DNA of 64,000 nt from Kitasatospora cineracea (GTDB lineage Bacteria; Actinomycetota; Actinomycetes; Streptomycetales; Streptomycetaceae): NCBI RefSeq assembly GCF_003751605.1, contig NZ_RJVJ01000001.1, positions 5,208,001-5,272,000 of the forward strand, given 5' to 3'. Each line of letters begins with the position of its first letter. The stretch's first letter is position 1. The translations under genes were made by a program, and so were the position numbers. Under the pieces are notes generated by a model. It saw only the letters and a program-made list of their open reading frames with translations, did no database searches and was not told the origin of the DNA. Positions 30,721 to 51,140 of the stretch are shown in pieces.

Positions 30721-30860
30721 TCCAGGCTGCGGCTTCCGCCACCCGGCTACGCTGGATCGCAATGCTCCGGCCGATACGAGGTCTTTACGGCGGCGGCGCG
30801 GTTCCTCCACGCTTGATCGAGCACCGCCTGACATGTGCCACCGGTCGTGAAGGGGGACGG

Positions 30861-32006
30861 ATGTCGAACGGAACCTCGAGGGAGTACTGGCACGCGCCCG
30901 CTCTGCCAAGCGTGTTCAAGCACGCGCTGCTCAGCCGCTACATACCCAAGTTCGGCGGAATGACGGGGTCGAAGAGCGGCCATGAGGTCGTCTACCTGGA
31001 TGGGTACGCGGGCGAGGGGCGGTACGAGAACGGTGATCCCGGGTCGGTCGATACGGTGCTGCGCATCGCGGCGGACCACCAGGCCAAGGGCTTGATCCGT
31101 TGGACCTGCTTCTTCGCCGAACGGTCGGCGTCCTCGTTCGCCCACCTGGAATCCCTCGTCGGTGAATACTGCGGCCGGGGCGTCGACGCTCGCGCCTTCC
31201 ACGGCGACGTCCTCACGTTGATGGACGACGTCCTGGCTGCCGCGGTCGGGCGGCCGTTGTTCCTCTTCCTTGACCCCTGCGGTCTGGGACTGCCGTTCGA
31301 CACCCTCGTGGACATCCTGGCCCGCCGCCGCAGGGAGACCTGGCCCCCGACCGAACTGCTGCTCAACTTCAGCATGATGGCGGTGCGCCGCATCGGCGGG
31401 AACTCCCGTTCCGACAAAGGCAACGAGCGAACCAGCAAGCGCCTGGACGAGGTCTGCGGCGGCCAGTGGTGGCGGGAGTATTTCGCCGCCGGCTACAGCC
31501 GGGACGCGGACGACGAGGTCGCAGCCGAGTACAGCCGACGCCTCGGGCAGGCCACGGGCATGCACACGGTCTCCGTCCCGGTCACCAAAGCCCCCGGCCA
31601 GAAGGCCGTCTACAACCTCGTCTTCGGAACCCGCAGCAACCACGGCCTGTGGGTCTTCGGCGACGCGCACTCCCGTGCCCGCGACACGTGGTGGGAAGGG
31701 CTGGAACTCCGAGAAGAGGACGACGGGCTGTTCTCCGTGGCGAGCATGCAGCGCCCAGACCCGAAGAAGATCCACGACCAGGCGATCCCCGTCATGGCCC
31801 ACAACATTGCCAGCCTGCTCCAGCAGGGCCGAGCCTTCAAACTCGTCGAGCACACGGCAGACGTCTTCGGAGAGTTCTACGGTCAGGTGCCCGAGACGGT
31901 GGCCCGCAAAGCGGTCAAGCACCTGAGAACGGCGGGTGGGACACCGAGCGACGGCACCGGCTCACCGATCCACAACCTGCAGGTACTTCCCCCGCTCAGA
32001 CCGTGA
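30861..32006 (+). CDS. tcmP: Three-Cys-motif partner protein (TcmP-like)
   Basis: A 381-residue protein resembling TcmP, the partner of three-Cys-motif (phage Gp37/Gp68, DUF5131) proteins. Recognisable parts are the N-terminal KHALLSRYIPKF, the DGYAGEGRYENGDPGS loop (a methyltransferase-like glycine loop), and LFLFLDPCGLGLPFDTLV, with ELLLNFSMMAVRR after it. The DUF5131 gene lies convergent to it with an 11-bp overlap of the 3' ends, which supports the assignment. The biochemical role is not established. The ATG at 30861 has AGGGGG 4 nt upstream. It could act with its partner in nucleic-acid modification or phage-related functions; that is inference. Confidence 0.8.
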   Translation: MSNGTSREYWHAPALPSVFKHALLSRYIPKFGGMTGSKSGHEVVYLDGYAGEGRYENGDPGSVDTVLRIAADHQAKGLIRWTCFFAERSASSFAHLESLVGEYCGRGVDARAFHGDVLTLMDDVLAAAVGRPLFLFLDPCGLGLPFDTLVDILARRRRETWPPTELLLNFSMMAVRRIGGNSRSDKGNERTSKRLDEVCGGQWWREYFAAGYSRDADDEVAAEYSRRLGQATGMHTVSVPVTKAPGQKAVYNLVFGTRSNHGLWVFGDAHSRARDTWWEGLELREEDDGLFSVASMQRPDPKKIHDQAIPVMAHNIASLLQQGRAFKLVEHTADVFGEFYGQVPETVARKAVKHLRTAGGTPSDGTGSPIHNLQVLPPLRP

Positions 32007-32742
32007 GGGGCAGCGGCATCTGATCCCACGTCCGACCCTCCAGCAGCCGACCGCCGGCCTTGGGCGTGTGTCCACCCCACTGTTTGAAGAAGAACGCGAC
32101 CTCTTCCCGCAGACAGGCGTCGCGCACGTCCAAGGCCCACTCCTCCTCCATCGGCCGATGACCGGGCCCGGACTCCCCACCGACGATCACCCAGTCGATG
32201 CCCTCCAGGTCCAGGCCGTCGAGCGGGCCGAGCAGCGGCTCGCAGGACAGGAACCGCACAGCGGCGGGCACGGCACGCAGGTCGTCGACACGGTCCAGCT
32301 CTGCCGCGCTCTCCACGGAGACACCGACCCACACGTTCGGCGGCCAATCCAACCGATCAGCCACACGGCGAAGCCGACGGGCCCGCTTGGTCAGCACCTG
32401 ATAGGTGTGCTGCGGCGTATCGGCCATCACAGCGAAGACCCGACGCACGAAATCGAGCGGCACCTTCGCGTGGAACAGGTCCGACATCGAGTTGACGAAC
32501 ACCGTCCGCGGCGCCCGCCACCCGTACGGCACCGACAGCGCGTCCGGATGCAGCGTCAGACCGAATCCGGGCCCCGACGTCCGAGGATCGCCGTCCTCCT
32601 GGTACTTCGCCGCGCCCATCGCCTTGAGCCGCTTCGCCAGGGCCAGGGCGTAGCAGTTGTCGCAGCCGGCCGAGACGCGGTCGCACCCGGTGGTCGGGTT
32701 CCATGTCGCCTCCGTCCACTCGATGCTGCTGCGATCGCTCAC
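31996..32742 (-). CDS. DUF5131 / phage Gp37-Gp68 family three-Cys-motif protein
   Basis: A 248-residue protein with the family start IEWTEATWNPTTGCDRVSAG followed by CDNCYA. The three cysteines (20, 27, 30; C-x6-C-x2-C) could hold an iron-sulphur cluster as in radical-SAM-like enzymes. Other conserved pieces are VNSMSDLFHAKVP, THTYQ-like QHTYQVLTKRARRL, VWVGVSVES, FLSCEPLLGPL, WVIVGGESGPGHRPM and FFFKQWGG. The family occurs in phages, plasmids and genomic islands and is linked to TcmP proteins, one of which converges here. The GTG start at 32742 is preceded by GAGGAG. Function is unknown; an IS256-type element lies just upstream. Confidence 0.85.
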   Translation of the reverse strand: MSDRSSIEWTEATWNPTTGCDRVSAGCDNCYALALAKRLKAMGAAKYQEDGDPRTSGPGFGLTLHPDALSVPYGWRAPRTVFVNSMSDLFHAKVPLDFVRRVFAVMADTPQHTYQVLTKRARRLRRVADRLDWPPNVWVGVSVESAAELDRVDDLRAVPAAVRFLSCEPLLGPLDGLDLEGIDWVIVGGESGPGHRPMEEEWALDVRDACLREEVAFFFKQWGGHTPKAGGRLLEGRTWDQMPLPLTV

Positions 32743-32879: not shown

Positions 32880-34265
32880 GGGTGTGTCCAGTGACTGGTG
32901 TATCTGATGTTGTGTGAGTTACCGGCGGCCGATGGAGAGTCGGCCGTCGAAGGCGATGTCGAACGCCTGGAGGGCGGGCTTCCATCGCATGGTCCAGCGT
33001 TTGCGGCCCCGGCCGGTGGGGTCGAGGCTCATGACGGCCATGTAAACGCACTTCAGCGCCGCTTGCTCGTTCGGGAAGTGCCCGCGGGCCCGGACGGCCT
33101 TGCGAATACGGGCGTTGACCGACTCGATCGCGTTCGTCGTGCAGACGACGCGACGGATCTCGACAACGAACTGCAGGAAGGGCACGAACTCGGCCCAGGC
33201 GTTCTCCCACAGCCGCACGATCGCCGGATACTTCCTCCCCCATGCCTCCTGGAACTCCAGGAACCGCTCCTCGGCGGCGTCCTGGGTCGGGGGGGGGGTG
33301 GAGACGGGCTTGAGCGCCTTCGAGATCTTGTCCCAGTCCTGGCGGGCCGCGTAGCGGAACGAGGCGCGCATCAGGTGGACGACGCAGGTCTGCGTGATCG
33401 CCTGCGGCCGGACCGTGCCGATGGCGTCGGGCAGCCCCTTCAAGCCGTCGCAGACGACCATGCACACGTCCTCGACGCCGCGGTTCTTGATCTCGGCGAG
33501 GACCTGGAGCCAGTACTTGGCGCCCTCACCGCCGTCGCCGGCCCACAGGCCCAGGATGTCGCGGGCGCCGTCGACGGTGACCGCGAGAGCGACGTAGACC
33601 GGCCGGTTGGCGACCTGCCCGTCGCGGACCTTCACATGGATGCAGTCAATGAACACGACCGGGTAGACCGGGTCGAGGGGACGGTTCTGCCACTCGGCCA
33701 TTCCGTCCACGACCTTGTCGGTAATGGTGGAGATCGTCGACTTGGACACGCTCGCGCCGTAGACCTCGGCCAGGTGGGCAGAGATGTCACCGTGCGTCAG
33801 ACCCCTTGCGGACAGGGACAGCACCATCTCATCCACGCCGGCCAGCCGCCGCCGGCGCTTCTTGACGAGCTGCGGCTCGAAGGAGCCCTGACGGTCGCGC
33901 GGCACCGCGATCTCGACCGGCCCGACATCGGTCAGCACGGTCTTCGAACAGATCCCGTTGCGGGAGTTCCCGCTGCCGGCCCCGACCTTGTCGTGCTTCT
34001 CGTAGCCGAGGTGGTCGGTGATCTCGCCCTCCAGAGCGGACTCCAGCACGCGCTTGGTCAGCTGCTGCAGCAGCCCGCCCTCGCCGGTCAGCCGGATCCC
34101 GCCTGCGTGGGCCCGGTCGACCAGCTGCCCGATCAACTGCTCGTCCAACAGGTCCGCCGCCATCTCAACCGGCCGAACCTCCTCAACCGCCTCAACCGAG
34201 GCAGTCACGTCGCTCATCAGGTGCTCTTCCTTGATCAGGAGATGCACCGGTCACCGTACAGACCC
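32880..34265. mobile_element. IS256-family insertion sequence
   Basis: The ends form imperfect 26-bp inverted repeats (32880-32905 and 34240-34265; 21 of 26 match), starting GGGTGTGT on one side and GGGTCTGT on the other. They enclose a single full-length IS256-type transposase gene. The length of 1386 bp is normal. No clear flanking duplication was found, so the insertion may be old or rearranged. It lies immediately upstream of the DUF5131 gene. Confidence 0.8.
32919..34217 (-). CDS. IS256-family (mutator-type) transposase
   Basis: A 432-residue DDE transposase. The start is the ATG at 34217 (MSDVTASVEAVEEV), preceded by GGAAGAG; an upstream start is possible. Family landmarks are ALEGEITDHLGYEKHD, GNSRNG, DKVVDGMAEWQNRPLDPVYPVVFIDCIHVKV (first Asp), VCDGLKGLPDAI (second Asp) and RVVCTTNAIESVNARIRKAV (Glu). 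The frame is intact despite a run of ten G on the plus strand at 33289-33298. It should catalyse movement of the surrounding element. Confidence 0.92.
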   Translation of the reverse strand: MSDVTASVEAVEEVRPVEMAADLLDEQLIGQLVDRAHAGGIRLTGEGGLLQQLTKRVLESALEGEITDHLGYEKHDKVGAGSGNSRNGICSKTVLTDVGPVEIAVPRDRQGSFEPQLVKKRRRRLAGVDEMVLSLSARGLTHGDISAHLAEVYGASVSKSTISTITDKVVDGMAEWQNRPLDPVYPVVFIDCIHVKVRDGQVANRPVYVALAVTVDGARDILGLWAGDGGEGAKYWLQVLAEIKNRGVEDVCMVVCDGLKGLPDAIGTVRPQAITQTCVVHLMRASFRYAARQDWDKISKALKPVSTPPPTQDAAEERFLEFQEAWGRKYPAIVRLWENAWAEFVPFLQFVVEIRRVVCTTNAIESVNARIRKAVRARGHFPNEQAALKCVYMAVMSLDPTGRGRKRWTMRWKPALQAFDIAFDGRLSIGRR

Positions 34266-35469: not shown

Positions 35470-36582
35470 TCAGCCGAGTCGGCGGCCGAGTTCGGCCAGG
35501 GCGGTGGCGGTGGTGCTGAGCGGGTGGCGGGCCGCGTTGGCCCGGCCCGCGTCGCGTAGTTCGGTGAGGAGGGTGCGGGCGGTCCGCAGCCGGCCCAGGG
35601 TGCGGGCGACGGCGGCGGGATCGGTGAAGTCGACGGCCAGCGCGGAGGCCCCGAGGGCCTCCACCAGTCCGGGGACGGGTTGGTAGAGGACGGGCAGGCC
35701 GCAGGCCTGGGCCTCGAGCGCGACCAGGCCCATGGCCTCCAGAGTGGTGGAGGGTACGGCGAGCGCGTCGTGCTCGGTGAAGGCCTGCCAGAGCTGCGGA
35801 CGGGGCAGCCAGCCGAGGTAGCGGGCGTCGACGCCCGCCTGCTGGAGCACGGGGCGGAACGCGCCGAACTCCGCGGCCGGTGCGGCGATGCTCAGCTCGA
35901 TCCCGGGGAGGGCGGCCAGTGCCTGGGCGAGGACGACGCCGCCCTTCTCCGGGGTGAGCCGTCCGGCGTACAGCAGCCGCAGGCGCTCGGCCGGGGCCGC
36001 CCCGAACGGTGCGGGCGGGTGGCGTAGGAGACGGTCGGGGACGCCCCACGGGATGTGGTGGATCTTGCGCGGATCGGTGTGGGGTGCGAGGCGGAGCAGG
36101 TGGTCGGCCATGGCGGGGGTGGGGGCCACGACGGCGTCGGCGAGGCGCGCGCTCTCGCGCAGGACCTGCAGTTGGTCGCGGTGCTGCTCGGCGAACAGCA
36201 GGTCGGTGCCGTGGATCAGCGCGATCCGGGGACGGTCGGGCAGGGCCCGGAGCAGCGCGGGGGTGGCACCGAATGCGAGGTGTTGCAGGTGCAGCACCTC
36301 GACCGGCTCCGCGGCCAGGGCGTGGGCGAGGGCTCGGGAGAGGGCGGCCACGTACCGGTGGAAGGTGGGCCCCTGGAGGGTCTTGCCGGTGACGGTGAGC
36401 AGGCCGAGCCCGGCCGGAAGCACGGGTGCTGGGCCGGACGGCCGGAGCATGAAGGCCCGGGCGGGGATCAGCGGGTCGGGGCCGGTGTAGAAGTCGTGGA
36501 AGAGTTCGACGCTGCCGCCGGGGCTGTCGGCGGGCAGGTCGAGGCAGGTGGCGACCAGCGGCCGGGGCATGGGGGTGGTCAT
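35470..36582 (-). CDS. GT4-family glycosyltransferase
   Basis: A 370-residue GT-B fold retaining glycosyltransferase. The C-terminal nucleotide-sugar domain shows LLYAGRLTPEKGGVVLAQAL and the donor-binding EAMGLVALEAQACGLPVL with its E-x7-E pattern. The N-terminal acceptor domain has an LIHGTDLLF segment. No signal or membrane segment is evident, so it is cytoplasmic. Its ATG overlaps the stop of the Dcd-like gene (ATGA). It is the last gene of a five-gene coupled operon and may add a sugar to a nucleotide- or enolpyruvyl-derived small molecule; acceptor and donor are unknown. Confidence 0.85.
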   Translation of the reverse strand: MTTPMPRPLVATCLDLPADSPGGSVELFHDFYTGPDPLIPARAFMLRPSGPAPVLPAGLGLLTVTGKTLQGPTFHRYVAALSRALAHALAAEPVEVLHLQHLAFGATPALLRALPDRPRIALIHGTDLLFAEQHRDQLQVLRESARLADAVVAPTPAMADHLLRLAPHTDPRKIHHIPWGVPDRLLRHPPAPFGAAPAERLRLLYAGRLTPEKGGVVLAQALAALPGIELSIAAPAAEFGAFRPVLQQAGVDARYLGWLPRPQLWQAFTEHDALAVPSTTLEAMGLVALEAQACGLPVLYQPVPGLVEALGASALAVDFTDPAAVARTLGRLRTARTLLTELRDAGRANAARHPLSTTATALAELGRRLG

Positions 36583-37115
36583 CGGGGGCCTCCGGGGATC
36601 TCCTCGTAGAGACGGGAGGTGTCGATGCCGTCGGTACCGGTGTACTTGAGGCCGAGCTGCTGGTAGCTGGCGGGGGCGCCGAAGGTCTGGAGGAAGACGA
36701 CCTTCCCGAACGTCATGCCGGCGTGGACCCGGACGGGGCGGACGGCGCGGATCTCCAGGGTCCAGCGGATCGCGTGGCCGGCGTGCCCGAGCGGAGCGGA
36801 GACGTGGACCCAGATGCCGAGCGATCCGACGGTGCGGTCGCCGTTGAGCATCTGCGCGTACCGCTCGGAGCCGGTGCGCTCCAGCGTCACCCCGAGGTAG
36901 AGCACGCCCGGATCGAGGACCACGCCCTCGGGCGGGATGGTGAGTTCCGTGGAGGAGGTGGGCGCGGCGGCGTCCAGGTCGCCGTCGCACACCCGCAGCG
37001 TCTCGCCCAGGCGCCAGTCGTAGGCGTTGGGGGACAGCCGGGCCGGGTCGAACGGCTCGATGGCGATCTCGCCCGCTGCGACGGCGGCGGCGATCGCGGG
37101 GCCGGTGAGGATCAT
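36579..37115 (-). CDS. Dcd-like protein, second paralogue (keeps Glu, lacks SS/R)
   Basis: A 178-residue dUTPase/dCTP-deaminase fold protein. The N-terminus MILTGPAIAAAV and the C-terminal GMTFGKVVFL and LGLKYTGTDG align with dCTP deaminase. The Ser-Ser-x-x-Arg segment is changed: it reads GDRTVGSLG (residues 92-100), so the first Ser is Arg94, the second Thr95, and the arginine is Ser98. The catalytic-type Glu is kept as Glu121 in WTLEIRAV. The paralogue directly upstream has the reciprocal pattern. Starts overlap as TGATG upstream and ATGA downstream. It may form a mixed oligomer with its partner, may bind nucleotides without deaminating them, or may have a new activity. Confidence 0.8.
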   Translation of the reverse strand: MILTGPAIAAAVAAGEIAIEPFDPARLSPNAYDWRLGETLRVCDGDLDAAAPTSSTELTIPPEGVVLDPGVLYLGVTLERTGSERYAQMLNGDRTVGSLGIWVHVSAPLGHAGHAIRWTLEIRAVRPVRVHAGMTFGKVVFLQTFGAPASYQQLGLKYTGTDGIDTSRLYEEIPGGPR

Positions 37116-37651
37116 CAGGCCGCCGCCCCGGCACCGGGCAGGTCGCGCCAGTAGGCAGAGGGCTGCGGGCCCTGTGCGGCCTGGTACTTGCCGCGGTAGA
37201 GGTCGACGGCGCCGACGGAGAGGAAGAACATGATCTGGCCGATCTTCATGCCCTCGTAGACCCGTAGCGGGCGGGTGGCGGAGAGCATCAGGGTCCACTG
37301 CCCGTGGAAGCCGATGTCGCCGATCGGCGCGGTGATCTCGACGAACAGGCCGAGCCTGCCCACCGACGAGCGGCCGAACAGCAGCGGGACGAACGTGTCG
37401 GAGCCGACCTCCTCCACGGTGTGCCCGAGGTAGAGCTCGCCGGGCTCCAGGACGAATCCGCCCGCACCGATCTCGAACTCCCTGGTGGGGTTGGGGCGGT
37501 GGGCGTCGATGACGGTGCCGGTGTAGACCCGCAGCGTCCTGCCGAGGCTGACGTTGTAGCTGTTGGGGTTGACCTGGTCGGCCTCGAACGGGGAGATGCG
37601 CATCCGGCCGTCGCCGGTGGCGGTGGTGATCTCCGGTCCGGTGAGGATCAT
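37115..37651 (-). CDS. Dcd-like protein, first paralogue (keeps SS/R, lacks Glu)
   Basis: A 178-residue dCTP-deaminase-fold protein. It keeps GRSSVGRLG (residues 93-101), with Ser95, Ser96 and Arg99 matching residues important in Dcd, and it keeps YEGMKIGQIMFF and YRGKYQAAQGP. The catalytic glutamate of the T-L-E-L segment is replaced by Met122 (WTLMLSAT). Classical Dcd converts dCTP to dUTP; without this Glu that reaction is doubtful for the protein alone. It overlaps the phosphatase gene upstream (ATGA) and its paralogue downstream (TGATG). The housekeeping dcd gene is expected elsewhere in the genome. Confidence 0.82.
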   Translation of the reverse strand: MILTGPEITTATGDGRMRISPFEADQVNPNSYNVSLGRTLRVYTGTVIDAHRPNPTREFEIGAGGFVLEPGELYLGHTVEEVGSDTFVPLLFGRSSVGRLGLFVEITAPIGDIGFHGQWTLMLSATRPLRVYEGMKIGQIMFFLSVGAVDLYRGKYQAAQGPQPSAYWRDLPGAGAAA

Positions 37652-38880
37652 GAGACGGCTCCTTCGTCGAATGGGGTGTCAGTGAGGGTGTGTCGGACGG
37701 CCAGCCCGAGCGGGTGGCCGAGCCGGTGTGCGGGCCCGGCCGGGAAACCCTCGGCCAGGTAGTCGGTGGTGAGTACGGCGCGCACCCCGGGCGGCAGCGG
37801 GTCGGGGACGGTCACCAGTGGCCCGGCCCGCTCGGCGAGCACGGGAAGCAGAGCGGGCAGGTCCGGATCGGCGTCTTCGGGGAGGGGAACGTGGACGAGT
37901 CGGTTGCCGCACGGTTCGACGGACAGCAGGTCGGCCAGGCACAGTTCGTCGCCGAGTGGGGTCTCCCGCAGCACGGTCTCGTTGAGGATCACGGCCTCCG
38001 CACCGAGTTCGGTGCGCAGCCGGACCGCGATGGCTTCCAGCAGTTCGCGCCGATCGGGCACCACGTTCCGCCAGCGGTCGGCGAGCCGCCCGAGCGGGAT
38101 GGCGAGTTCGGCTGCGAGCGCCTCGATCTGCTCGCCGATCGGCTCCAACTCGGCAGGGAGTGGAGCTGATTGGGGAAAGCAGCCGGTGCGGGCGGCCCAG
38201 CCGACACCGGCGGGTTCGGCGAGGGCGTACCCGGCGCCGAGTTCGGCGCCCTTGACGATCAGGGTGGTGCCGACCTGCTCGGGACCGTAGCGGTCGCTGT
38301 GGCAGTGCCCGGCGAAGACGACGTCCAGGAACGGGCACTCGTCGACCAACCGAAGGTCGTGCTCGAATCCGGAGTGGGACAGCACTACCCAGGAGTCCAC
38401 CTCGTGGTGGTGGGCGATCAGCAGGTCGCGCAGGGCCCGGACCGGGTCTGTGGCGCGTTGGCCGACACGATCGCCCAGTGGGATAGCGGAGAACGCCTGC
38501 TCGCCGATGACCGCAGTGACCGCCACTCTCCGGCCGCCGACCTCGGCCTTCTGCAGCGGACGGAACAGCAGTTCACCGGTCTCCGAGTCGACAGCGTTCG
38601 CGCAGACCGTCAACTCGCGCAGGCCTGGCTCGAAGTGATGGCTCCAGCCGTGGTTGCCCGGTGCGATCACGTCGAACAGCGATAGTAGGACGCGCCGCTC
38701 GACACGGCCTTGGCCGAGGCGGTAGATGCCGGTGCCCTCGAAGAAGTCGCCGCAGTCCACCACCAGGGCGCCCTCGCGGGCGGCGTGCAGGTGGGCCAGC
38801 ATCCCGGTCGACCCGGCGAGGGAGGAGTGGATGTCGGTGGTGGCGATGATCTGCCGCAGCGTCCGCGTCGGCGGGGTCAT
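37648..38880 (-). CDS. Metallophosphatase / 5'-nucleotidase-like
   Basis: A 410-residue calcineurin-like phosphoesterase with a UshA/CpdB-type layout but no signal peptide. Metal-binding motifs are in order: TTDIHSSLAG (D-x-H), VVDCGDFFEG (GD), APGNHGWSHHF (GNH), VVLSHSGFEHD (H) and VFAGHCHSDRYG (GHxH). The C-terminal region (about residues 270-400) corresponds to a 5'-nucleotidase C domain. It may dephosphorylate a nucleotide intermediate made by the MurA-like and Dcd-like neighbours. The ATG at 38880 overlaps the MurA-like stop (ATGA). Cytoplasmic location is unusual for the UshA group. Confidence 0.85.
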   Translation of the reverse strand: MTPPTRTLRQIIATTDIHSSLAGSTGMLAHLHAAREGALVVDCGDFFEGTGIYRLGQGRVERRVLLSLFDVIAPGNHGWSHHFEPGLRELTVCANAVDSETGELLFRPLQKAEVGGRRVAVTAVIGEQAFSAIPLGDRVGQRATDPVRALRDLLIAHHHEVDSWVVLSHSGFEHDLRLVDECPFLDVVFAGHCHSDRYGPEQVGTTLIVKGAELGAGYALAEPAGVGWAARTGCFPQSAPLPAELEPIGEQIEALAAELAIPLGRLADRWRNVVPDRRELLEAIAVRLRTELGAEAVILNETVLRETPLGDELCLADLLSVEPCGNRLVHVPLPEDADPDLPALLPVLAERAGPLVTVPDPLPPGVRAVLTTDYLAEGFPAGPAHRLGHPLGLAVRHTLTDTPFDEGAVS

Positions 38881-40190
38881 CGGGTGGCCTCGGTGATGTC
38901 GGCCCCCAGCGCGCGGAGTTTTCCGGGCAGATCGGCGTGGCCGCGTCGGAGCTGGTCGAGACCGCTGACGGTCGTGGTGCCGCGTGCGGTCAGGCCGGCG
39001 ATCAGCAGCGCAGTGCCGGTGCGGATGTCGGTGGCCCGGACAGCGGTGCCGGTGAGCCGCTGGGGTCCGGTCAGGTGGCATTCGGTCGAGGAGATCTCTT
39101 CGAACTCGGCCCCGAGTGCGCGCAGTTGGGAGAGCAGGTTGTGGTGTCGGCCGGGGTTGACTGCGTCGGCGAACCGGTGGGTGCCGGGCAGACCGAGGGC
39201 GAGGGCGAGCAGGGCGGGTTCGAAGTCGGCGTCCAGGCCGTCCGGGTCGAGCGAGGCTACGGCGGACAGCGGCTTGCCGCTCGGGGTGCCGCCACCGGGC
39301 AGAACCAGGGCCTCGGGTTCAGCTATGGCGGGGATGCCGAGACGGTTGAGCGCCCGGACGACAGGGGCGGTGTCCAGGCCGTGCACGCCTTCGATCCGGC
39401 CGCTGCCGCCGGTCGCGGCGATCGCGCAGGCCAGCGTTCCGGCTTCGATCTTGTCGCCGGGTACCGTCCAGCTCAGGTCCGCACCGCTGGTGACGGACGG
39501 AGGTTCGAGGACGAGGCGGTTCTCGCCGAGGTCCGCTCGCCATCCGCCCTGCCGCAGGAAGTCCAGTACGCCGGTGAACTCCGGTGACAGGTTGGGGCTG
39601 CCCAGGAGCAGCCGCCGATCGCCCGCCACGGCGCGCAGCACCGCGACGACGCTGGCCCCGCGGGAGCGGAACGGCAGCTCGATCGCCACCTGCCCGGCGC
39701 GGCCGGCGGCGGTGGCGACTCGGTAGCCGGCGTCGCCGGTCTCGACCTCGTCGCCGAACGCCTCGTAGACCTTGAAGTGCAGGTCCATGCCCCGCTCACC
39801 GATCCGGCAGCCCCCGGGCCAGGGCAACTGGGCCTGGCCGTAGGTGGCCAGCAGGGAGGGCACCAGGTAGTAGGAAGCGCGGATCCGGGCGGCCTCGGTG
39901 AGATGGGACAGCCGGGTGCGGTCCTCGACGGGAGCGAGGGCGACCGCCCGGGGAGCGGAGACAGGGCGGGTCAGGCAGTTGCCCGCGCGCTGGAGCAGCG
40001 TCAGCATCAGCTGGACGTCCGTGCTGTCGGGCACGTTGTCCAGGGTGACCGGGCGGCGGACCGCCGCGGCGGCGGCCAGCAACGGCAGGGCGGCGTTCTT
40101 CGAGCCGTCCACCCGCACGGCGCCGGCCAGCGGGCGGCCGGGGCGGACGGTGATGGACGGACCGGCCTCGGTGATGGAGATGGGCGTCAT
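38877..40190 (-). CDS. MurA-like enolpyruvyl transferase
   Basis: A 437-residue EPSP-synthase/MurA fold protein. It keeps the substrate-binding GSKNAALP near residue 30, the MurA-type cysteine in PWPGGCRIGERGMDLH (the Cys that reacts with phosphoenolpyruvate), and VPGDKIEAGTLACAIAATGG with the conserved Asp and Glu. MurA proper adds enolpyruvyl to UDP-GlcNAc for peptidoglycan. Here the gene heads an operon with a nucleotidase and Dcd-like proteins, and not cell-wall genes, so the acceptor may be another nucleotide, as in nikkomycin/polyoxin-type pathways; that is inference. The ATG at 40190 follows GGAGGA at 5 nt. A divergent XRE regulator lies across a 307-bp gap. Confidence 0.85.
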   Translation of the reverse strand: MTPISITEAGPSITVRPGRPLAGAVRVDGSKNAALPLLAAAAAVRRPVTLDNVPDSTDVQLMLTLLQRAGNCLTRPVSAPRAVALAPVEDRTRLSHLTEAARIRASYYLVPSLLATYGQAQLPWPGGCRIGERGMDLHFKVYEAFGDEVETGDAGYRVATAAGRAGQVAIELPFRSRGASVVAVLRAVAGDRRLLLGSPNLSPEFTGVLDFLRQGGWRADLGENRLVLEPPSVTSGADLSWTVPGDKIEAGTLACAIAATGGSGRIEGVHGLDTAPVVRALNRLGIPAIAEPEALVLPGGGTPSGKPLSAVASLDPDGLDADFEPALLALALGLPGTHRFADAVNPGRHHNLLSQLRALGAEFEEISSTECHLTGPQRLTGTAVRATDIRTGTALLIAGLTARGTTTVSGLDQLRRGHADLPGKLRALGADITEATR

Positions 40191-40497
40191 GGAATCCTCC
40201 ACGGCAGTGGGCGGAACGGACGGGCGAGGGGGGAACGAGTCGGCCGGGCGAACCGGACCGTGGAGCCTCGTACCGGTCGGACGGAATGCGTCAGCGGCCG
40301 CCGCACGTCGGTCCGCGACGGTGGCCGGGCCTCCCGGGCCCGCCCCCGGCGGTCGAGCGCACGTTCGCCGCTCGATCGGGGAGAGCTCAATCCGACACCC
40401 GATCAGGTGGTCGTGGCAGGGCAGATTAGGTGGGTGAATTACGGCTGCCGAGTAGGCTGAATCCCCTTCCTACTCGCTCAGTTGGGGGATCGGACAG
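40191..40497. other. 307-bp divergent promoter region, MurA-like operon / XRE regulator
   Basis: The region lies between divergent starts and should contain both promoters. GGAGGA for the MurA-like gene and GGGGGAT for the XRE gene are visible at the two edges. A short inverted repeat, GTAGG...CCTAC (40452-40472), lies 26 bp before the XRE start. No confident -35/-10 pair and no gene were found. Confidence 0.45.
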
Positions 40498-41691
40498 ATG
40501 GAGAACCGGGCCTTGCGGCAGGCCAGGGAGGCAGCGGGCTGGACTCAGCAGGATGTGGCCGACCGTGTCCAGGACTGGCTCCTGGAACGTGACTTCGATC
40601 CCGGGAGCTTTGACGCCAGTACGGTCAGCCGCCTTGAATGCGGTCGCATCAGGTGGCCACGGGACGAGACGCGGACGGCACTGCGTGCGGTGTTCGGGGT
40701 CGACACCGATGCGGAACTCGGCCTGCACGGCAGGCGGAGGCCGCGGACCGCGAAGCCCGAGGTGAGTACGACGAGACGCCGAACCTTCCTGTCGATCGGC
40801 GCAGCCGCCGTGCTGCCCGACAGCGCGATCGCACCGACCCGACTCGGCGCCGACGATGTGCGCGAACTCCGGTACCACGTCGAAGCCCTGGCCGACTGGG
40901 ACCGCCGCTCCGGGGGCCGTTCCACCCGCCACTTCGCCGGCCTGGAACTGCAGCGCGCGATCGGCCTCGGCACGGCGTCGATGAACCCGGCCGTCCGCAC
41001 CAGCTGGAGCACCGAGGTGGCCCGGTTGGCCGGCCTGTACGCATGGACCACCTTCGACGCCGGGGCGAACGGCGCCGGGCCCGTCTTCGACCTGGCCCTC
41101 GAAGCAGCACGGGAGGCGAACGACTCCTCCGCCTACTGCCGCATCGCCACGAACGCCGCCCGCCAGGCCGTCCACGCGGCCGACGCCGACCGGGCACTGG
41201 CCCTCACCGCTTCCGTCCCCGGTGCTCACCCGCCCGCGGTTCGGGCGATGATCGCCGCCGTCACCGCGCAGGGCCTCGCACTCCGCGGTGACGTCCGGAG
41301 CGTGATGCGGGCCGTCGACGAGGCCGAAGCCCACGCGTCCCGCGCCGATGCTGCCGAAGAAGGCGAAGGGTGGATGCAGACCCTGACCCCGGGCAAACTC
41401 CGCTCCGACCTCGGCTACGCCCTGTACCGGTTGTCCGCGACCACCGGCCATCTCGTTCCCGATCTGGTGCCGCAACTGCGTCGCGCCGCCGGGGTATCCG
41501 CGACGGCCCAGCCTCGGGCGAAGGCGATGGGTGCAGCCCGGCTGGCCACCGTCCTGGTCCGCCAAGGGGAGCTGGACGAGGCCCGGCACCATGCGGCGGT
41601 CGCCGTCGAACTCGCTGCGGTCGTGCAGTCGGCGCGCCTCGACACGGCCGTCGCCGAGATGCGGGCAGCGGGTTGCGGAGAACCGTTCTGA
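40498..41691 (+). CDS. XRE-family HTH regulator with TPR-like C-terminal region
   Basis: A 397-residue regulator. The N-terminal helix-turn-helix (ALRQAREAAGWTQQDVADRV, then ASTVSRLECGR; residues 5-50) is unusual in having an extra charged insertion (QDWLLERDFDPGSF). An Arg-rich linker follows, and then an all-helical Ala-rich region of about 280 residues with TPR-like repeats (for example LDEARHHAAVAVELAAVVQ). Such proteins often sense small molecules or peptides in streptomycetes. It diverges from the MurA-like operon and may control it. The ligand is unknown. Confidence 0.82.
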   Translation: MENRALRQAREAAGWTQQDVADRVQDWLLERDFDPGSFDASTVSRLECGRIRWPRDETRTALRAVFGVDTDAELGLHGRRRPRTAKPEVSTTRRRTFLSIGAAAVLPDSAIAPTRLGADDVRELRYHVEALADWDRRSGGRSTRHFAGLELQRAIGLGTASMNPAVRTSWSTEVARLAGLYAWTTFDAGANGAGPVFDLALEAAREANDSSAYCRIATNAARQAVHAADADRALALTASVPGAHPPAVRAMIAAVTAQGLALRGDVRSVMRAVDEAEAHASRADAAEEGEGWMQTLTPGKLRSDLGYALYRLSATTGHLVPDLVPQLRRAAGVSATAQPRAKAMGAARLATVLVRQGELDEARHHAAVAVELAAVVQSARLDTAVAEMRAAGCGEPF

Positions 41692-45130: not shown

Positions 45131-46117
45131 ATGTCATCAGCGCCCACGGCGGTCGGCACCGCCCAACTCGTGCCGCATCCGGCCGGCCATGACGGCGAGC
45201 TGCGGGCGGCGGTCGAGGAACTGCGGCAGGGACGGCGGTTCGCAGCGCGGGCGCTGCTCGCCCGTACCTGGGGGGACCCGGGGCTGTGGGCGGCGCGGAC
45301 CCAGGTACTCGGCGCGGCAGCCGGCCACTCCGACGTGCTCCGCCATTGGGAGACCGAGGAGCCGGAGGCCGTCGGCCTGATCGCGCTGTGCACCCGTGTC
45401 GCGGTGGACCGCGCCGTGCTGGCCGGCCGGCAGCAGCCCGGCTCGCGCGATGCCGCGGCGCTGGACGGGGCTGCCCGGCAGTGGTGCTGGCTGACGGCTT
45501 CGGCGACCGAGGGCGACCCGGTGCCGTGGCTGGGCCTGCTCACCCTCGCGCAGTTGGACTCCCGGCAGGTCCGGCAGGAACACCGAGTGTCGGCGCCCGA
45601 CCGGATGCTGCCACCGGGGCCGTGGGGGCTGTTCGGCCAGGCCCGCCGGGTCGACCCGTGGGGCCGGGAGGCGTTCCACCGGATGCTGCGCTTCTGGGCG
45701 GCCCGCGGTGAGAGCGGTCCCGCTGCCGAGTTCCTGGCCGCCCACCTGCCCGGCGCACCGGAAGGCTCAGCCCTTCACGCCCTGCCGCTGTACCTGTACG
45801 TCGACCGCTACCGCCGAGCGAAGCGCAAGGACGCCGTTCTGCTGCAGTGGACGAACGAGGAGAAGGTCCGCGCCACGGTGCTGACCGCGTTCTCGCACTG
45901 GCAGTTCGCGCTCGAGCGGGGTGCCCGGTGGCCGGTGGGGGACGAGAGTCACCTCGCCCACGCGCTCTGGGCGAGCCGCCGACCCCGGGAGGCGGCCGAG
46001 GTATTCACCGGCATGAGCCCGTTCGTCGCCTCGGAACCCTGGGTGACCATGTCCCCGGACCGGCCGGGTGACCTGCTGCGGCAGGCGCTGGCCCAGTCGT
46101 ACGCCGTCGCCGGCTGA
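45131..46117 (+). CDS. Unknown helical protein, first gene of the array
   Basis: A 328-residue soluble protein with no recognised family. It is rich in Ala, Leu, Arg and Trp and appears all-helical, with repeating features reminiscent of TPR or DUF4034-like repeats (ELRAAVEELRQGRRFAARAL near the N-terminus; HALWASRRPREAAEVFTG near the C-terminus). The ATG has AAGGAGG 9 nt upstream, which is strong. It heads the rightward set leading to the permease 55 bp downstream. Residues 205-245 (ALPLYLYVDRYRRAKRKDAV) are distinctive and may help in searches. Function cannot be assigned. Confidence 0.7.
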   Translation: MSSAPTAVGTAQLVPHPAGHDGELRAAVEELRQGRRFAARALLARTWGDPGLWAARTQVLGAAAGHSDVLRHWETEEPEAVGLIALCTRVAVDRAVLAGRQQPGSRDAAALDGAARQWCWLTASATEGDPVPWLGLLTLAQLDSRQVRQEHRVSAPDRMLPPGPWGLFGQARRVDPWGREAFHRMLRFWAARGESGPAAEFLAAHLPGAPEGSALHALPLYLYVDRYRRAKRKDAVLLQWTNEEKVRATVLTAFSHWQFALERGARWPVGDESHLAHALWASRRPREAAEVFTGMSPFVASEPWVTMSPDRPGDLLRQALAQSYAVAG

Positions 46118-46172
46118 CCGCTGCTCTTCCGTCCGCCGGACTCAACTCCCCTTTTTCACTGGAGGTTTCGCC

Positions 46173-47663
46173 ATGCCCGGATCCAATCCCGTGCTTCTGC
46201 CCGAGGACGACTACCTCCGCTCTCTCGGCTACCAGCCCGAACTGCTGCGCAAGATGGGCTCCTTCGGGAACTTCGCTGTCAGCTTCTCGGTCATCTCGGT
46301 ACTCAGCGGCTGCATGACGCTGTTCGGCTTCGGGCTGACGGCCGGCGGGCCGACCGTGATGATGCTGGGCTGGGTCGCCGTGGGCCTGGCCGTGCTGCTG
46401 GTCGGCATGTCGCTGGCGGAGGTCACCAGCGCCTACCCCACTTCCGGCGCGCTCTTCTACATGTCGAGGCAGCTCGGCGGCCCCCGGTGGGGCTGGGTGA
46501 CGGGCTGGCTGAACTTGCTGGGGCTGCTGGGCGGGATCGCCGGCATCGACTACGGGGCAGCGGGCTTCATCGCGGCGTTCGCCGGACTGCAGTGGGGCGT
46601 CGTTCCGACGCCAGGCCTGATCCTGGGCGTCTTCGCGGGCGTCCTGCTGCTGCATGCGCTGCTGAACGTCGTCGGGGTCCGGGCCGTCAGTGTGCTCAAC
46701 TCGGTCTCGGTATGGTGGCACCTGGCCGGTGTCGCGCTGATCGTCGGTGTGCTGGCCGTCGTGCCCGCCCGCCACCAGACGATGGGCTGGGTGATCGGAC
46801 ACTTCGAGAACGGCACCGGTTGGTCCAGCCCCCTCTACGCCTCTGCGATCGGGCTGCTGCTGGGCGGTTACACCTTCTGCGGCTTCGACGCTTCCGCTCA
46901 CATGAGCGAGGAGACCGCTGACGCACGGGTGGCCGCGCCCCGTGGCATCGTCCGCTCGATCTGGGTGTCGCTGCTGGTCGGGTTCGTCCTGCTGGGCGGC
47001 CTGCTGTTCGCCGTTCAGGACTACGACGGGACGGTCGCCGCCGCGGTGCCGCCCGCACAGATCTTCCTGGATGCGCTCGGCGCGGGCGGCGCGAAGACGC
47101 TGCTGCTGGTCGTCATCGGCGCGCAGCTGTTCTGCGGCAGCGCGGAGACCACCGCCGCGAGCCGGATGATCTACTCCTTCTCGCGGGACGGCGCGCTGCC
47201 GGGCTCGGCGACGTGGCGCCGGGTCTCGGCCAACGGCACTCCGGTGCCGGCGGTGTGGCTGGCGGTGACGGTGGCGTTCGTCCTGGCCGTCCCTTCACTC
47301 TGGTCGGCCACCGCGTACGGCGCGGTGACGGCGGTGAACGTGATCGGCATGACCCCGTCGTACGTCGTCCCGGTCTTCCTGAAGCTGCGCTACCCGCACA
47401 AGTTCACCCCGGGGCCGTGGAACCTGGGCCGCTGGAGCAGGCCGGTGGGGATCGCGGCGGTGGTATGGGTGGCGGTGCTGACGGTACTGGTGTGCCTGCC
47501 GCAGCGCGCCCCGGTGACGGTCGACTCGTTCAACTACGCACCACTCACCCTGCTGGCGGTCCTCGCCATGGCGTGGGTGTGGTGGAAGCTCGCCGGCGAC
47601 AAGTTCGACGTCCCGGTGGTGGCCGACGCCCACCTGGCCAAGATCGAGGCCCAGATCGTATGA
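46173..47663 (+). CDS. APC-superfamily amino acid permease (GABA/polyamine-permease-like)
   Basis: A 496-residue membrane protein with about 12 segments. The N-terminal DDYLRSLGYQPELLRKMGSF and the next FGNFAVSFSVISVLSGCMTLFG, followed by MSLAEVTSAYPTSGALFYMS, are typical of the bacterial GABA permease/amino acid transporter group; GFDASAHMSEETADA marks helix 6. GGAGG lies 7 nt before the ATG. The stop overlaps the start of a glutamine-synthetase-like ligase (ATGA). A permease coupled to such a ligase suggests uptake and gamma-glutamylation of an amine or amino acid, as in PuuP/PuuA. Confidence 0.88.
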   Translation: MPGSNPVLLPEDDYLRSLGYQPELLRKMGSFGNFAVSFSVISVLSGCMTLFGFGLTAGGPTVMMLGWVAVGLAVLLVGMSLAEVTSAYPTSGALFYMSRQLGGPRWGWVTGWLNLLGLLGGIAGIDYGAAGFIAAFAGLQWGVVPTPGLILGVFAGVLLLHALLNVVGVRAVSVLNSVSVWWHLAGVALIVGVLAVVPARHQTMGWVIGHFENGTGWSSPLYASAIGLLLGGYTFCGFDASAHMSEETADARVAAPRGIVRSIWVSLLVGFVLLGGLLFAVQDYDGTVAAAVPPAQIFLDALGAGGAKTLLLVVIGAQLFCGSAETTAASRMIYSFSRDGALPGSATWRRVSANGTPVPAVWLAVTVAFVLAVPSLWSATAYGAVTAVNVIGMTPSYVVPVFLKLRYPHKFTPGPWNLGRWSRPVGIAAVVWVAVLTVLVCLPQRAPVTVDSFNYAPLTLLAVLAMAWVWWKLAGDKFDVPVVADAHLAKIEAQIV

Positions 47664-49060
47664 GGACGACGATGCGGGCCGCTCGCCCCGCGGCAACCCC
47701 TCCCACCAGACCGGTCGGACCGCTGGAGCAACTGGTCACCGACTTCGACCTCGACACCGTGCTGGTGGCGATGATCGACCAACAGGGCAGACTCAAGGGC
47801 AAGGAGTACGACGCGGCCGGGCTGGCCGAGCGGCTGGCGGCAGGGTCGTCGCTGGAGGTGTGCGGCTACCTGCTCGGCACCGATGTGGACATGACCCCGG
47901 CAGCACGCGGACCGTTCTCGTGGACGAGCGGGTTCGGCGACGTCGAGATGTTGCCCGGTACGGAGCGGGCCCGGCTGCTGCCGTGGTTGCCGGCCACCGC
48001 GCTGGTCCTCGCCGACCTGGTCAGTTACGGAGCCCCGCATCCGCTGGCTCCGACTACGGTGCTGGAGCGGCAACTGCGCCTGCTGGCCCGCCTCGGCGTC
48101 GTACCCCAGGTCGGCATCGAGACGGAGTTCGTGCTCTACGAGGGCACCCTCCGGGACGCGGAGGCGTCCGGGTGGCGTCGCCTTCGCCCCGCGGCCTGCG
48201 GAAACCGCGACTACGCGCTGGACGCCCCCGGCCCGGTGCGGGAGTTCGGCCGTCGCCTGCGGCAGGTCCTCGGGGCGGCCGGCCTGCCGGTCGAGGCCGT
48301 CAAAGGGGAAGGTGCGCCCGGTCAGGTCGAAGTGACCTTCCCGTACGGAGTCGCCGAGGAAGCGTGCATCCAGCACGTGCTGTTCAAGCATGCCGCGAAG
48401 ACGGTCGCGGACGGGCTGGGGCTGACAGCGTCGTTCATGGCGGCGAACCCCGGTGGGGTCGGCTCGGGGATGCACCTGCACGTCTCCCTGCACGACGGTG
48501 ACGGCCGGTCGCTGCTGGCCGCCGACCCGGAGCGCGGCACGGAGCTGTCGGAACTGGGCGGGTGGGCGGTGGCCGGGCTGCTGGCCGCGATGGGGGAGTT
48601 CGGCCCGCTGTGGGCGCCGTACGTCAACAGCTACAAGCGGCTCGCCACCGACCACTCCTTCGCGCCGACCCGCCTCGCGTGGGGTCGGGACAACCGGACG
48701 TGCGCGGTCAGGGTGGTCGGCCACGGCCCCAGCCTGCGGCTGGAAGTGCGGCTGCCGGGCGCGGACGCCAACCCGCTGCTCGCCCTGGCAGCAGCGCTGG
48801 CCGGCATCCGGCACGGCATCACCGCCAGGCTCGAACCCCCGCCCGCCGTCAGCGGCGACGCCTACGTGCTGCTCGACGCCCCACCGGTGCCGTGCTCCCT
48901 CCAGGAGGCCGTCGGCCTGTTCGAGGCCAGCGCGCTGGCCGGGGAACTACTGGGCGAACCTGTGGTCCGGCACCTGGCGCGGGTGGCCCAGATGGACCTG
49001 GACCACCACGCCGCGCGCGTCACCGACGCCGAGGTCGAGCGCGGCCTGGCCCAGGCGTGA
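47660..49060 (+). CDS. Glutamine-synthetase-family ligase (gamma-glutamyl-amide type)
   Basis: A 466-residue GS-fold enzyme, distinct from housekeeping GlnA. Active-site pieces are QVGIETEFVLYEG (metal Glu), EGAPGQVEVTFPYG, GGVGSGMHLHVSL (metal His), and NSYKRL with FAPTRLAWGRDNRTCAVRV (ATP and glutamate site). The N-terminal beta-grasp half (about residues 25-120) is present. This type ligates glutamate to amines or amino compounds with ATP (PuuA/GlnA3-like). It is coupled by ATGA to the permease, so it probably acts on the imported compound. The true acceptor is unknown; the Tyr adenylylation region of GlnA was not recognised. Confidence 0.87.
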   Translation: MRTTMRAARPAATPPTRPVGPLEQLVTDFDLDTVLVAMIDQQGRLKGKEYDAAGLAERLAAGSSLEVCGYLLGTDVDMTPAARGPFSWTSGFGDVEMLPGTERARLLPWLPATALVLADLVSYGAPHPLAPTTVLERQLRLLARLGVVPQVGIETEFVLYEGTLRDAEASGWRRLRPAACGNRDYALDAPGPVREFGRRLRQVLGAAGLPVEAVKGEGAPGQVEVTFPYGVAEEACIQHVLFKHAAKTVADGLGLTASFMAANPGGVGSGMHLHVSLHDGDGRSLLAADPERGTELSELGGWAVAGLLAAMGEFGPLWAPYVNSYKRLATDHSFAPTRLAWGRDNRTCAVRVVGHGPSLRLEVRLPGADANPLLALAAALAGIRHGITARLEPPPAVSGDAYVLLDAPPVPCSLQEAVGLFEASALAGELLGEPVVRHLARVAQMDLDHHAARVTDAEVERGLAQA

Positions 49061-49145
49061 GTCCCGGGACGGCAGCGGACCAGCCTCCGAGCCCGCCGTC
49101 GGCCTGAACCAACTTCCTTGTACTGAACGACTGTTGGAGATCCAC

Positions 49146-51140
49146 ATGAGTATCACCGCCCCGTCCGGTACGGCGCCGCTACCCGGACTGCTGTCGGCCG
49201 TCCACCTCGTCGGGTCCTGCGAGCCCGGAATGGAGGGCCTGGCCCGCTGGCTGGCCGGGGCCGGTGCCGACGTCACCGGCAGCGTCCCCGAGGCAGAGCA
49301 GGGCGCCCCGGCCGTGGCCGCCCTCGCCGAGGCGGGCATCCGGGTGCGGGTCGGATTCGACGCCGAACACCTGCTCGCCGACCGCACCGCGGTGCTGTGG
49401 TCGGGGGCGAGCGGGCCGCACCCCGAACTGGACCGCGCCCAGGCGCTACGGCTGCCGATCCTGAGCCGGGACATTGCCCTCAGGGCGGTCTGCGCCGAGG
49501 CCGGCAGCGGGGCGGTGGCCGTGGCCGGCAGCCACAGCACTGCTACCGCGGCCGCCGCCCTCGCCCATCTCCTCGACGACGGAGCCACCGGCTGGATCCT
49601 CAACACTCCGGCCCGCGGAGCCACCGCCGGGCACGCGGCCGGGCAGCGGGTCGTGGTGGACCTGTGCCCGGACACCGCCACCCACGAGGCCGCCCCGAGG
49701 GGCGGCTGGCAGCGACGTCCCACACCGTACGTCCGGCTCGCCACCGAACAGCTCGCCGCCGCGCTGATCATGGCGACCGGCGCCAACGTCCCGCACTACG
49801 AGGACCACGTCGCCGGTCTCGACGCCGCCGAACGTCTCGCCCGCCGCACCGACATCCTCGTCCTGCCGACTTGGGACAACAGCACGGTCAACCTGCGCGA
49901 ACGCCTGGCAGACCGCCCCGTGCCCGGCCAGCACGTGGTCACCGTCGGTATCGCCCCCGACTCCACCGCCCGGATCGTTCACCTCACCCGCACCGGGGTG
50001 GGCTATCGCACCGTACTGCGCTACCGGCAGGAGGAGCACTCCTTCCTCCTGCCGGTCACCGGCGAGCACCACGCCCGAGCGGTGTGCGCCGCCGTCGCCT
50101 GCGCGCTGGCGCTCGGCGAGCACCCGCAGACCGTCGTCGCCCGAGCCGCCGGCTTCCGCGGAGTCGAGGGCTGCCTCGCCACTGCCGCCACCCAGCGCGG
50201 CGTCACCGTGGCCATGTCCCGTGCCCGGCACCCGCACGAGGTCGCCCAGGACGTGCAGGCAGCCCGCTTGCTGACCGAAGGCGCGCTGATCGCTGTCCTG
50301 GAACCGGACGGTATCGCCCGCGCCGGCGCCCACGCCGCCGAACTCGGAGACGCCCTCGTCGGCGCCGACCAGGTACTGCTGCTGCCGGTCAACACCCCGT
50401 TGGCCGGACACGCCGGGCCGGACCCGCTGGAGGCCATCGAGGAGATGGCCCGTCAGCGGCGCGGTGACGGCACCGTCCATCGCACCGGCCGTAGCCCGGA
50501 GCAGCAGATCGACGGACTGGTCGGGGAGGGGGACCTGGTCCTCGTCATCGGCACCGGGGCGGCTCGGCTGCTGGGGCCGCGCCTGCTGGCTCGCCTGGGT
50601 CACCCCACTCCGCCGACCGCGCCCGCTCCCGGCCTCGACCAGGAGACGGCTGCGGTCGCGAACAGCCTCAGCGACCTCACCCCCAAGAGCATCGAACTCG
50701 CTGTCGCCATCGCGGCCGGCCGCACCGCCCGCGACATCGCCCGCGGCTCCAGCACCTACCGGAGTACCGAAGGCGCCCGAAAAGCGGTCGAACACCTTCT
50801 ACGCAAGACCGGCGCCCGCCACCGCCGCCAGCTCACCGCTTGGGCAACCGCCGCGAAGATCGTCACCGCTCCGTCCCGCGACACGAAGGCGCTGACCTCC
50901 CCGCCAGTTCTACCGCCCCGGATCCAGACGATTCTCCAGGGCTGGGCCGACGGCCGCTCCACCGAGGAGATCAGGAAGGAGCTCAACGTTTCCCAGCCGA
51001 TCCTGGACGTCTACATCCGCACCCTGCAACTGCACTTGGACGTGGACACCCTCGAGCAGGCCATGGTCGTGGCCGTCCTTTCGGGCCTCGTCCGAGTCGA
51101 ACTGCCCGGAGATCCGTACCCGGCGGAGGTGACGCCGTGA
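49146..51140 (+). CDS. MurC-like protein with degenerate P-loop fused to two C-terminal helix-turn-helix domains
   Basis: A 664-residue protein. Residues 17-485 follow the order of Mur ligases of the MurC type: N-terminal Rossmann (AVHLVGSCEPGMEGLARWLA, then NPEL-like HPELDRAQAL), central domain, and C-terminal domain (GEHHARAVCAAVACALALG, ARHPHEV, EGDLVLVIGTGA). The ATP loop, normally GTHGKTTT, reads GSHSTATA (128-135), so the Lys is lost and ligase activity is doubtful. Residues 508-570 and 588-645 look like LuxR-type HTH regions (LTPKSIELAVAIAAGRTARDIA; IQTILQGWADGRSTEEIRKELNVS). It may be a DNA-binding sensor derived from MurC. The ATG has GGAG upstream; it overlaps the next gene (GTGA). 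Confidence 0.8.
   Translation: MSITAPSGTAPLPGLLSAVHLVGSCEPGMEGLARWLAGAGADVTGSVPEAEQGAPAVAALAEAGIRVRVGFDAEHLLADRTAVLWSGASGPHPELDRAQALRLPILSRDIALRAVCAEAGSGAVAVAGSHSTATAAAALAHLLDDGATGWILNTPARGATAGHAAGQRVVVDLCPDTATHEAAPRGGWQRRPTPYVRLATEQLAAALIMATGANVPHYEDHVAGLDAAERLARRTDILVLPTWDNSTVNLRERLADRPVPGQHVVTVGIAPDSTARIVHLTRTGVGYRTVLRYRQEEHSFLLPVTGEHHARAVCAAVACALALGEHPQTVVARAAGFRGVEGCLATAATQRGVTVAMSRARHPHEVAQDVQAARLLTEGALIAVLEPDGIARAGAHAAELGDALVGADQVLLLPVNTPLAGHAGPDPLEAIEEMARQRRGDGTVHRTGRSPEQQIDGLVGEGDLVLVIGTGAARLLGPRLLARLGHPTPPTAPAPGLDQETAAVANSLSDLTPKSIELAVAIAAGRTARDIARGSSTYRSTEGARKAVEHLLRKTGARHRRQLTAWATAAKIVTAPSRDTKALTSPPVLPPRIQTILQGWADGRSTEEIRKELNVSQPILDVYIRTLQLHLDVDTLEQAMVVAVLSGLVRVELPGDPYPAEVTP

Follow-up and report, generated by a model that had tools for sequence, protein, structure and literature searches.

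Two adjacent genes on the reverse strand of a 64,000-nucleotide stretch of the Kitasatospora cineracea genome, here called the window, encode Dcd-like proteins that share out the active-site residues of dCTP deaminases between them. Comparison of their sequences and of analogous enzymes indicates that this arrangement is probably best explained by an obligate heteromer of the two chains with one complete site. Dcd1 (37115..37651, 178 amino acids), the presumed beta-type subunit, retains motif 2 as GRSSVGRLG (residues 93-101, at 37349..37375, including Ser95, Ser96 and Arg99), the motif-3 residue Asp112 and the C-terminal lid GKYQ, and harbors Met122 (codon 37286..37288, within TLML) at the position of the catalytic Glu. 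Dcd2 (36579..37115, 178 amino acids), the presumed alpha-type subunit, retains this residue as Glu121 (codon 36753..36755, within TLEI), whereas its motif 2 is changed to GDRTVGSLG (residues 92-100, at 36816..36842), with a serine at position 98. In phmmer alignments, the Glu of the Mycobacterium tuberculosis Dcd motif ITLELSN pairs with Met122 in Dcd1 and with Glu121 in Dcd2. The coordinates and residues reported in an earlier sequence-only reading of this DNA were thus reproduced. Two further complementary losses, absent from that reading, concern the motif-3 Asp, which is replaced by His in Dcd2, and the lid Gln (Gln157), which is gone from it; Dcd1 keeps both. The C-termini are of the Dcd type GKYQ..GPQ or a remnant thereof. 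The stop codon of Dcd1 overlaps the ATG of Dcd2 in the sequence TGATG (37115..37119), which was read as translational coupling.

Both proteins belong to the DCD family PF22769 of Pfam, with scores of 140 bits for Dcd1 and 87 bits for Dcd2 at a cut-off of 27. The narrower NCBIfam equivalog dCTP_deam (TIGR02274, cut-off 92.8) includes Dcd1 at 98.2 bits and leaves Dcd2 below at 61.7 bits. AlphaFold2 monomer models of Dcd1 and Dcd2 reached pLDDT values of 93 and 89 and pTM values of 0.87 and 0.85, respectively, and both models matched solved Dcd chains with TM scores of about 0.87-0.91, so that a Dcd fold is confidently predicted for each chain. The housekeeping and solitary Dcds that were sampled possess the motif-3 Asp; since this residue is missing from Dcd2, its reaction may differ. 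If the split-site reading is true, labelling these genes plainly as dCTP deaminases is unsafe.

Orthologues of Dcd2 were collected from one genome per species, which returned 80 loci, mainly from Streptomyces but also from Kitasatospora, Streptacidiphilus, Yinghuangia, Promicromonospora and Microtetraspora. Dcd1 is located directly upstream of Dcd2 in all 80. Ser95, Ser96, Arg99 and Met122 of Dcd1 are unchanged in 79 of 79 clean orthologues, while Dcd2 contains Glu121 in 80 of 80 loci and an Arg at position 98 in none. The stop and start codons of the two genes overlap in nearly all loci, most orthologues having a 4-nt GTGA/ATGA form. In the 94 complete pairs of this kind, designated type A, Dcd1 always combines Met with Ser/Ser/Arg and Dcd2 always has the Glu and never the Arg; the catalytic Glu and the motif-2 Ser/Arg are divided between the two chains and never occur in one polypeptide. 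Being invariant in 94 type-A pairs, the split is far from chance. The constant adjacency with the same division of residues that the sequence-only reading had proposed to look for is therefore present throughout. Median dN/dS ratios, obtained with a simple counting method, were 0.26 for Dcd1 and 0.28 for Dcd2 (range about 0.25-0.28), which points to purifying selection on both genes. Each copy does miss active-site residues, as would be expected if duplicated dcd genes were simply decaying, and occasional decayed pairs are known (a second copy in genome G648 and a pair in Embleya). However, the low dN/dS ratios and the full invariance across dozens of species leave decay with a negligible probability: because both genes are under purifying selection and the split is invariant, it is excluded, in agreement with the earlier argument that such a neat division would not be expected to arise in this way.

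Pairing extends beyond type A. Among the Dcd-like genes of 395 Streptomycetaceae genomes, those additional to the housekeeping copy occur in twos, with 1, 3, 5 or 7 matches per genome. Two exceptions with 2 matches were a genome in which only the pair was matched (G086) and one in which the second match was no stronger than that of a housekeeping gene (G520). The single-paralogue loci that would have spoken against the original proposal were thus not encountered among the non-housekeeping copies of these genomes. Altogether 125 complete pairs were compared, comprising 94 of type A, 23 of type B and 8 of type C, the latter two types being located in other operons. Exactly one partner carries the Glu in 125 of 125 pairs, and this is always the alpha chain. 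The beta chain retains Ser95, Arg99, Asp112, Lys155, Tyr156 and Gln157 in 125 of 125 pairs. Asp112 and Gln157 are retained by none of the alpha chains, and those of types A and C have lost Ser95 and Arg99 as well; in motif 3 of the alphas, position 112 is occupied by His, Asn or Gln instead of Asp and position 115 by His, Ala or Ser instead of Phe. In type B, which is also found on Nonomuraea, Nocardiopsis and Rhizobium plasmids, the first gene encodes GRSSxGRLG together with the Glu, and the second encodes RSGxARLG, the Asp and the lid, with Gln or Met at the Glu position. In type C, the Glu-less partner forms the N-terminal domain of a fusion of approximately 830 residues with PPDK ATP-binding and PEP-utiliser domains, and the partner with the Glu is encoded 7-10 kb downstream of the fusion gene. 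Eight loci with such a fused beta (L210-L212, L215-L217, L219 and L224) belong to operons that also contain HAD, type I phosphodiesterase and DUF6001 genes; in L210 a CTP synthase gene is located near the alpha gene.

In phylogenetic trees all alpha chains form one clade (100/93 and 99/92), whereas a single clade of beta chains is weakly supported (70/36), and the grouping of type-A with type-C alphas was flagged for long-branch risk. Solitary relatives in Paenibacillus and Aneurinibacillus (Paenibacillaceae) contain the whole residue set in one chain. The simplest history suggested by these sequences would be one duplication, after which beta lost the Glu and alpha lost the Asp and the lid, followed by loss of motif 2 in the A/C line. 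The steps of this history would then still be represented, from the complete enzyme of the solitary relatives through type B, where the Glu alone is divided, to types A and C, where the division affects both sets of residues. If this is true, the order of losses becomes directly testable.

The two chains of each pair might instead form independent homo-oligomers with separate jobs that merely share an operon. This is compatible with type B, in which the alphas keep both motif 2 and the Glu and could act alone, and with type C, in which the partner genes are 7-10 kb apart and one is a fusion. Shared inheritance of an operon would by itself also hold a pair together. However, the pairing is strict, the start/stop overlap is conserved in type A, and the alphas of types A and C lack the Ser/Arg that bind phosphate. 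Since these are missing, a homotrimer of such alphas would have none of the usual phosphate-binding residues and could not bind nucleotides in the usual way. Separate homo-oligomers are accordingly considered improbable, and the obligate heteromer remains the favored reading.

In members of the dUTPase superfamily, one active site draws its motifs II and III from neighboring subunits. Judging from this motif layout and from known Dcd structures, the Dcd Glu, located just past motif III, should face motif 2 of the adjacent chain. Dcd1 and Dcd2 would then represent the beta and alpha subunits of a heteromeric enzyme with a dCTP-deaminase fold. In a mixed ring, for example beta2-alpha, motif 2 of beta (Ser95, Ser96 and Arg99) and Glu121 of alpha would form the sole complete site, the opposite interface between alpha motif 2 and beta Met122 would be inactive, and binding but no deamination would be possible at the beta/beta interface. 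The sequence-only reading had spoken of complete sites rebuilt from both chains; as a 2:1 ring allows at most one complete interface, this was corrected to one complete site. According to the titles of PDB entries, Dcd variants with Ala or Gln in place of the Glu have been crystallized with a ligand, either nucleotide or pyrophosphate (1xs4, E138A, with dCTP; 3gf0, E145Q). Natural subunits with Gln or Met at this position therefore need not be non-binding.

The complete site would most likely deaminate dCTP or a related cytosine nucleotide to its uracil counterpart, dCTP as the specific substrate being less certain than the heteromer. Two other assignments likewise presuppose a heteromer, and the likelihoods given here for the various alternatives are not mutually exclusive. 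The complete site might not deaminate dCTP at all, the pair having taken on a different reaction on nucleotides, or their sensing, within the pathway. The alphas lack the motif-3 Asp and the aromatic residue in all pairs, the operons are biosynthetic and highly varied, and a separate housekeeping dcd is present elsewhere in the same genome. Nevertheless, alpha never loses the deaminase Glu (125 of 125 pairs) and beta never loses Ser95 and Arg99 of motif 2, so that such a recruitment appears rather unlikely, although it is the strongest of the alternatives. Less probable still is a beta-rich ring with a deaminase site at the beta/alpha interface and a dUTPase-like site, with Asp and without Glu, at the beta/beta interface, which would jointly convert dCTP to dUMP. 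Every beta contains motif 2, Asp112 and the lid but no Glu, a dUTPase-like set, alpha carries the opposite motif-3 set, and a nucleotidase-like gene is part of the operon; however, the P-loop motif V was not seen in beta. This P-loop motif is absent from DCDs (PMC4827122).

For the favored heteromer, the product would be handled by the other enzymes of the operon and end in a small nucleotide-derived metabolite. All of these genes are located on the reverse strand. A MurA-like enolpyruvyl transferase (38877..40202), which aligns with MurA through the SKN motif, the PGGC motif containing the catalytic Cys, and the Asp and Arg motifs, is followed by a calcineurin-like metallophosphatase (37648..38880) that has an N-domain resembling 5'-nucleotidases such as UshA. 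Downstream of Dcd1 and Dcd2 are a GT4-family glycosyltransferase (35470..36582), which overlaps the stop of Dcd2 by 4 nt, and a serine hydrolase of the beta-lactamase family PF00144 (34326..35384), the last gene of the conserved operon. The order MurA-like protein, metallophosphatase, Dcd1, Dcd2, GT4 and serine hydrolase is intact in 71 of the 80 loci, and several of the other 9 are interrupted by contig ends. The phosphatase shares 32% identity with a phosphatase beside a type-B pair, and the GT4 shares 33% with a GT4 neighboring a type-B pair. A divergent type-A subgroup contains Dcd1-Dcd2-GT4 alone, amid NRPS-like, argininosuccinate-synthase-like, P450 and O-methyltransferase genes. The conserved operon looks like a biosynthetic pathway acting on a nucleotide; as the shared theme of its genes is enzymes for nucleotides and sugars, we infer a nucleotide-derived metabolite. 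It would represent a widespread, apparently undescribed Streptomyces operon family, probably for such metabolites.

A third MurA homologue of this genome is encoded on a different contig (C3, 75197-76489; 313 bits, above the cut-off). Divergent from the operon, an NsdA-family regulator is encoded at 40498-41691 on the forward strand. It is not kept there in other type-A loci, most of which have an opposite-strand gene of another family at this position.

Mobilisation-type genes occur 7-8 kb upstream in about 34 of the 80 loci, and one operon is located on a 208-kb plasmid. In L045, L063, L086, L087, L107 and about 30 further type-A loci, genes for MobC (identified by Pfam), a relaxase-like protein and a SpoIIAB-like ATPase lie 3.5-10 kb upstream of Dcd2. 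The relaxase-like gene shows a HxDxHIH motif by eye and has no Pfam match. The recurrence of these three genes suggests that the operon is the cargo of a mobile element. A wider proposal, rated at not quite an even chance, is that all pairs belong to an undescribed, obligate alpha/beta split-site Dcd-like family that arose by one duplication, has persisted in both actinobacteria and rhizobia within three or more kinds of biosynthetic operon, frequently plasmid-borne or next to mobilisation genes, and makes a precursor of nucleoside-type metabolites with one deaminase site per ring and perhaps a separate dUTPase-like site.

Dcd1 and Dcd2 have the same fold and arrangement of motifs as dCTP deaminases and bifunctional DCD-DUT enzymes (Escherichia coli 1xs1, M. 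tuberculosis 2qxx, Methanocaldococcus jannaschii 1ogh), and the catalytic Glu and motif 2 of these enzymes are present as well, distributed over the two chains. However, the known Dcd enzymes are homotrimers in which every chain is complete, whereas Dcd1 and Dcd2 each miss a part. One precedent is provided by tandem Dcds (PF06559 DCD_N plus a C domain; Agrobacterium 2r9q), whose N domain retains motif 2 as PKSSTGRLD and whose C domain has lost motif 2 and retains motif 3 (AGFFDPGFG) and the Glu. Six tandem Dcds from a few genomes of the same phylum (L249-L254) likewise contain motif 2 in the N domain only, and their C domain retains motif 3 and the Glu. Unlike Dcd1 and Dcd2, the tandem proteins are single fused polypeptides with very low sequence similarity to the pair, their N domain still has the Glu and their C domain the motif-3 Asp. 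PF06559 does not match Dcd1 or Dcd2, whose genes are separate and not fused, and no tandem PF06559 Dcd was found in the source genome at an E-value of 1e-15. A second precedent is found in the monomeric herpesvirus dUTPases (Epstein-Barr virus, 2BSY), in which duplication followed by complementary motif loss resulted in one active site (PMC12524310); in contrast to the pair, these are fused dUTPases without the deaminase Glu. Motif splitting is thus already known in fused chains, whereas the accessible literature yielded no conserved form of it with separate genes in biosynthetic operons. A search of open-access papers found no published split-site Dcd encoded by separate genes, no relevant work on Dcd in gene clusters for nucleosides or in those of Streptomyces, and no paper mentioning dCTP deaminase together with a nucleoside antibiotic. 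If true, the heteromer would be a clear example from nature of a metabolic enzyme that passed from a homo-oligomer to an obligate hetero-oligomer in which a single active site remains. The nucleoside-antibiotic pathways with NikO (4fqd) resemble the operon in that an enolpyruvyl transferase of the MurA type takes part in what looks like a pathway on nucleotides; the MurA-like protein of the operon is nearer to MurA (163 bits) than to NikO (79 bits).

In the second copy of G648 (L227:7281-8214), a type-A pair, Dcd1 is disrupted by a frameshift or a deletion and Dcd2 is open. On an Embleya plasmid (L244:8001-8696), an alpha gene continues in frame into the last third of a beta gene, apparently via a deletion between VQPVRVY repeats, and may be a natural chimera or a decayed pair.

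Two other readings of the operon were considered and dropped: an anti-phage defence system, such as the known ones based on dCTP deaminases, as none of the six operon proteins matched a PADLOC defence model, and a phage origin, as Dcd2 had no match in 50,697 phage records. Elsewhere in the window, a three-Cys-motif partner protein (TcmP; 30762-32006, forward strand) adjoins a DUF5131 protein (31996-32742, reverse strand) that matches the PADLOC candidate defence models PDC-M41B/M30B (1.5e-110), and an IS256 transposase follows at 32919-34247. Outside the studied operon, amino-acid permease, glutamine-synthetase-like and Mur-ligase-like open reading frames are arranged in series at 46068-51140 on the forward strand.
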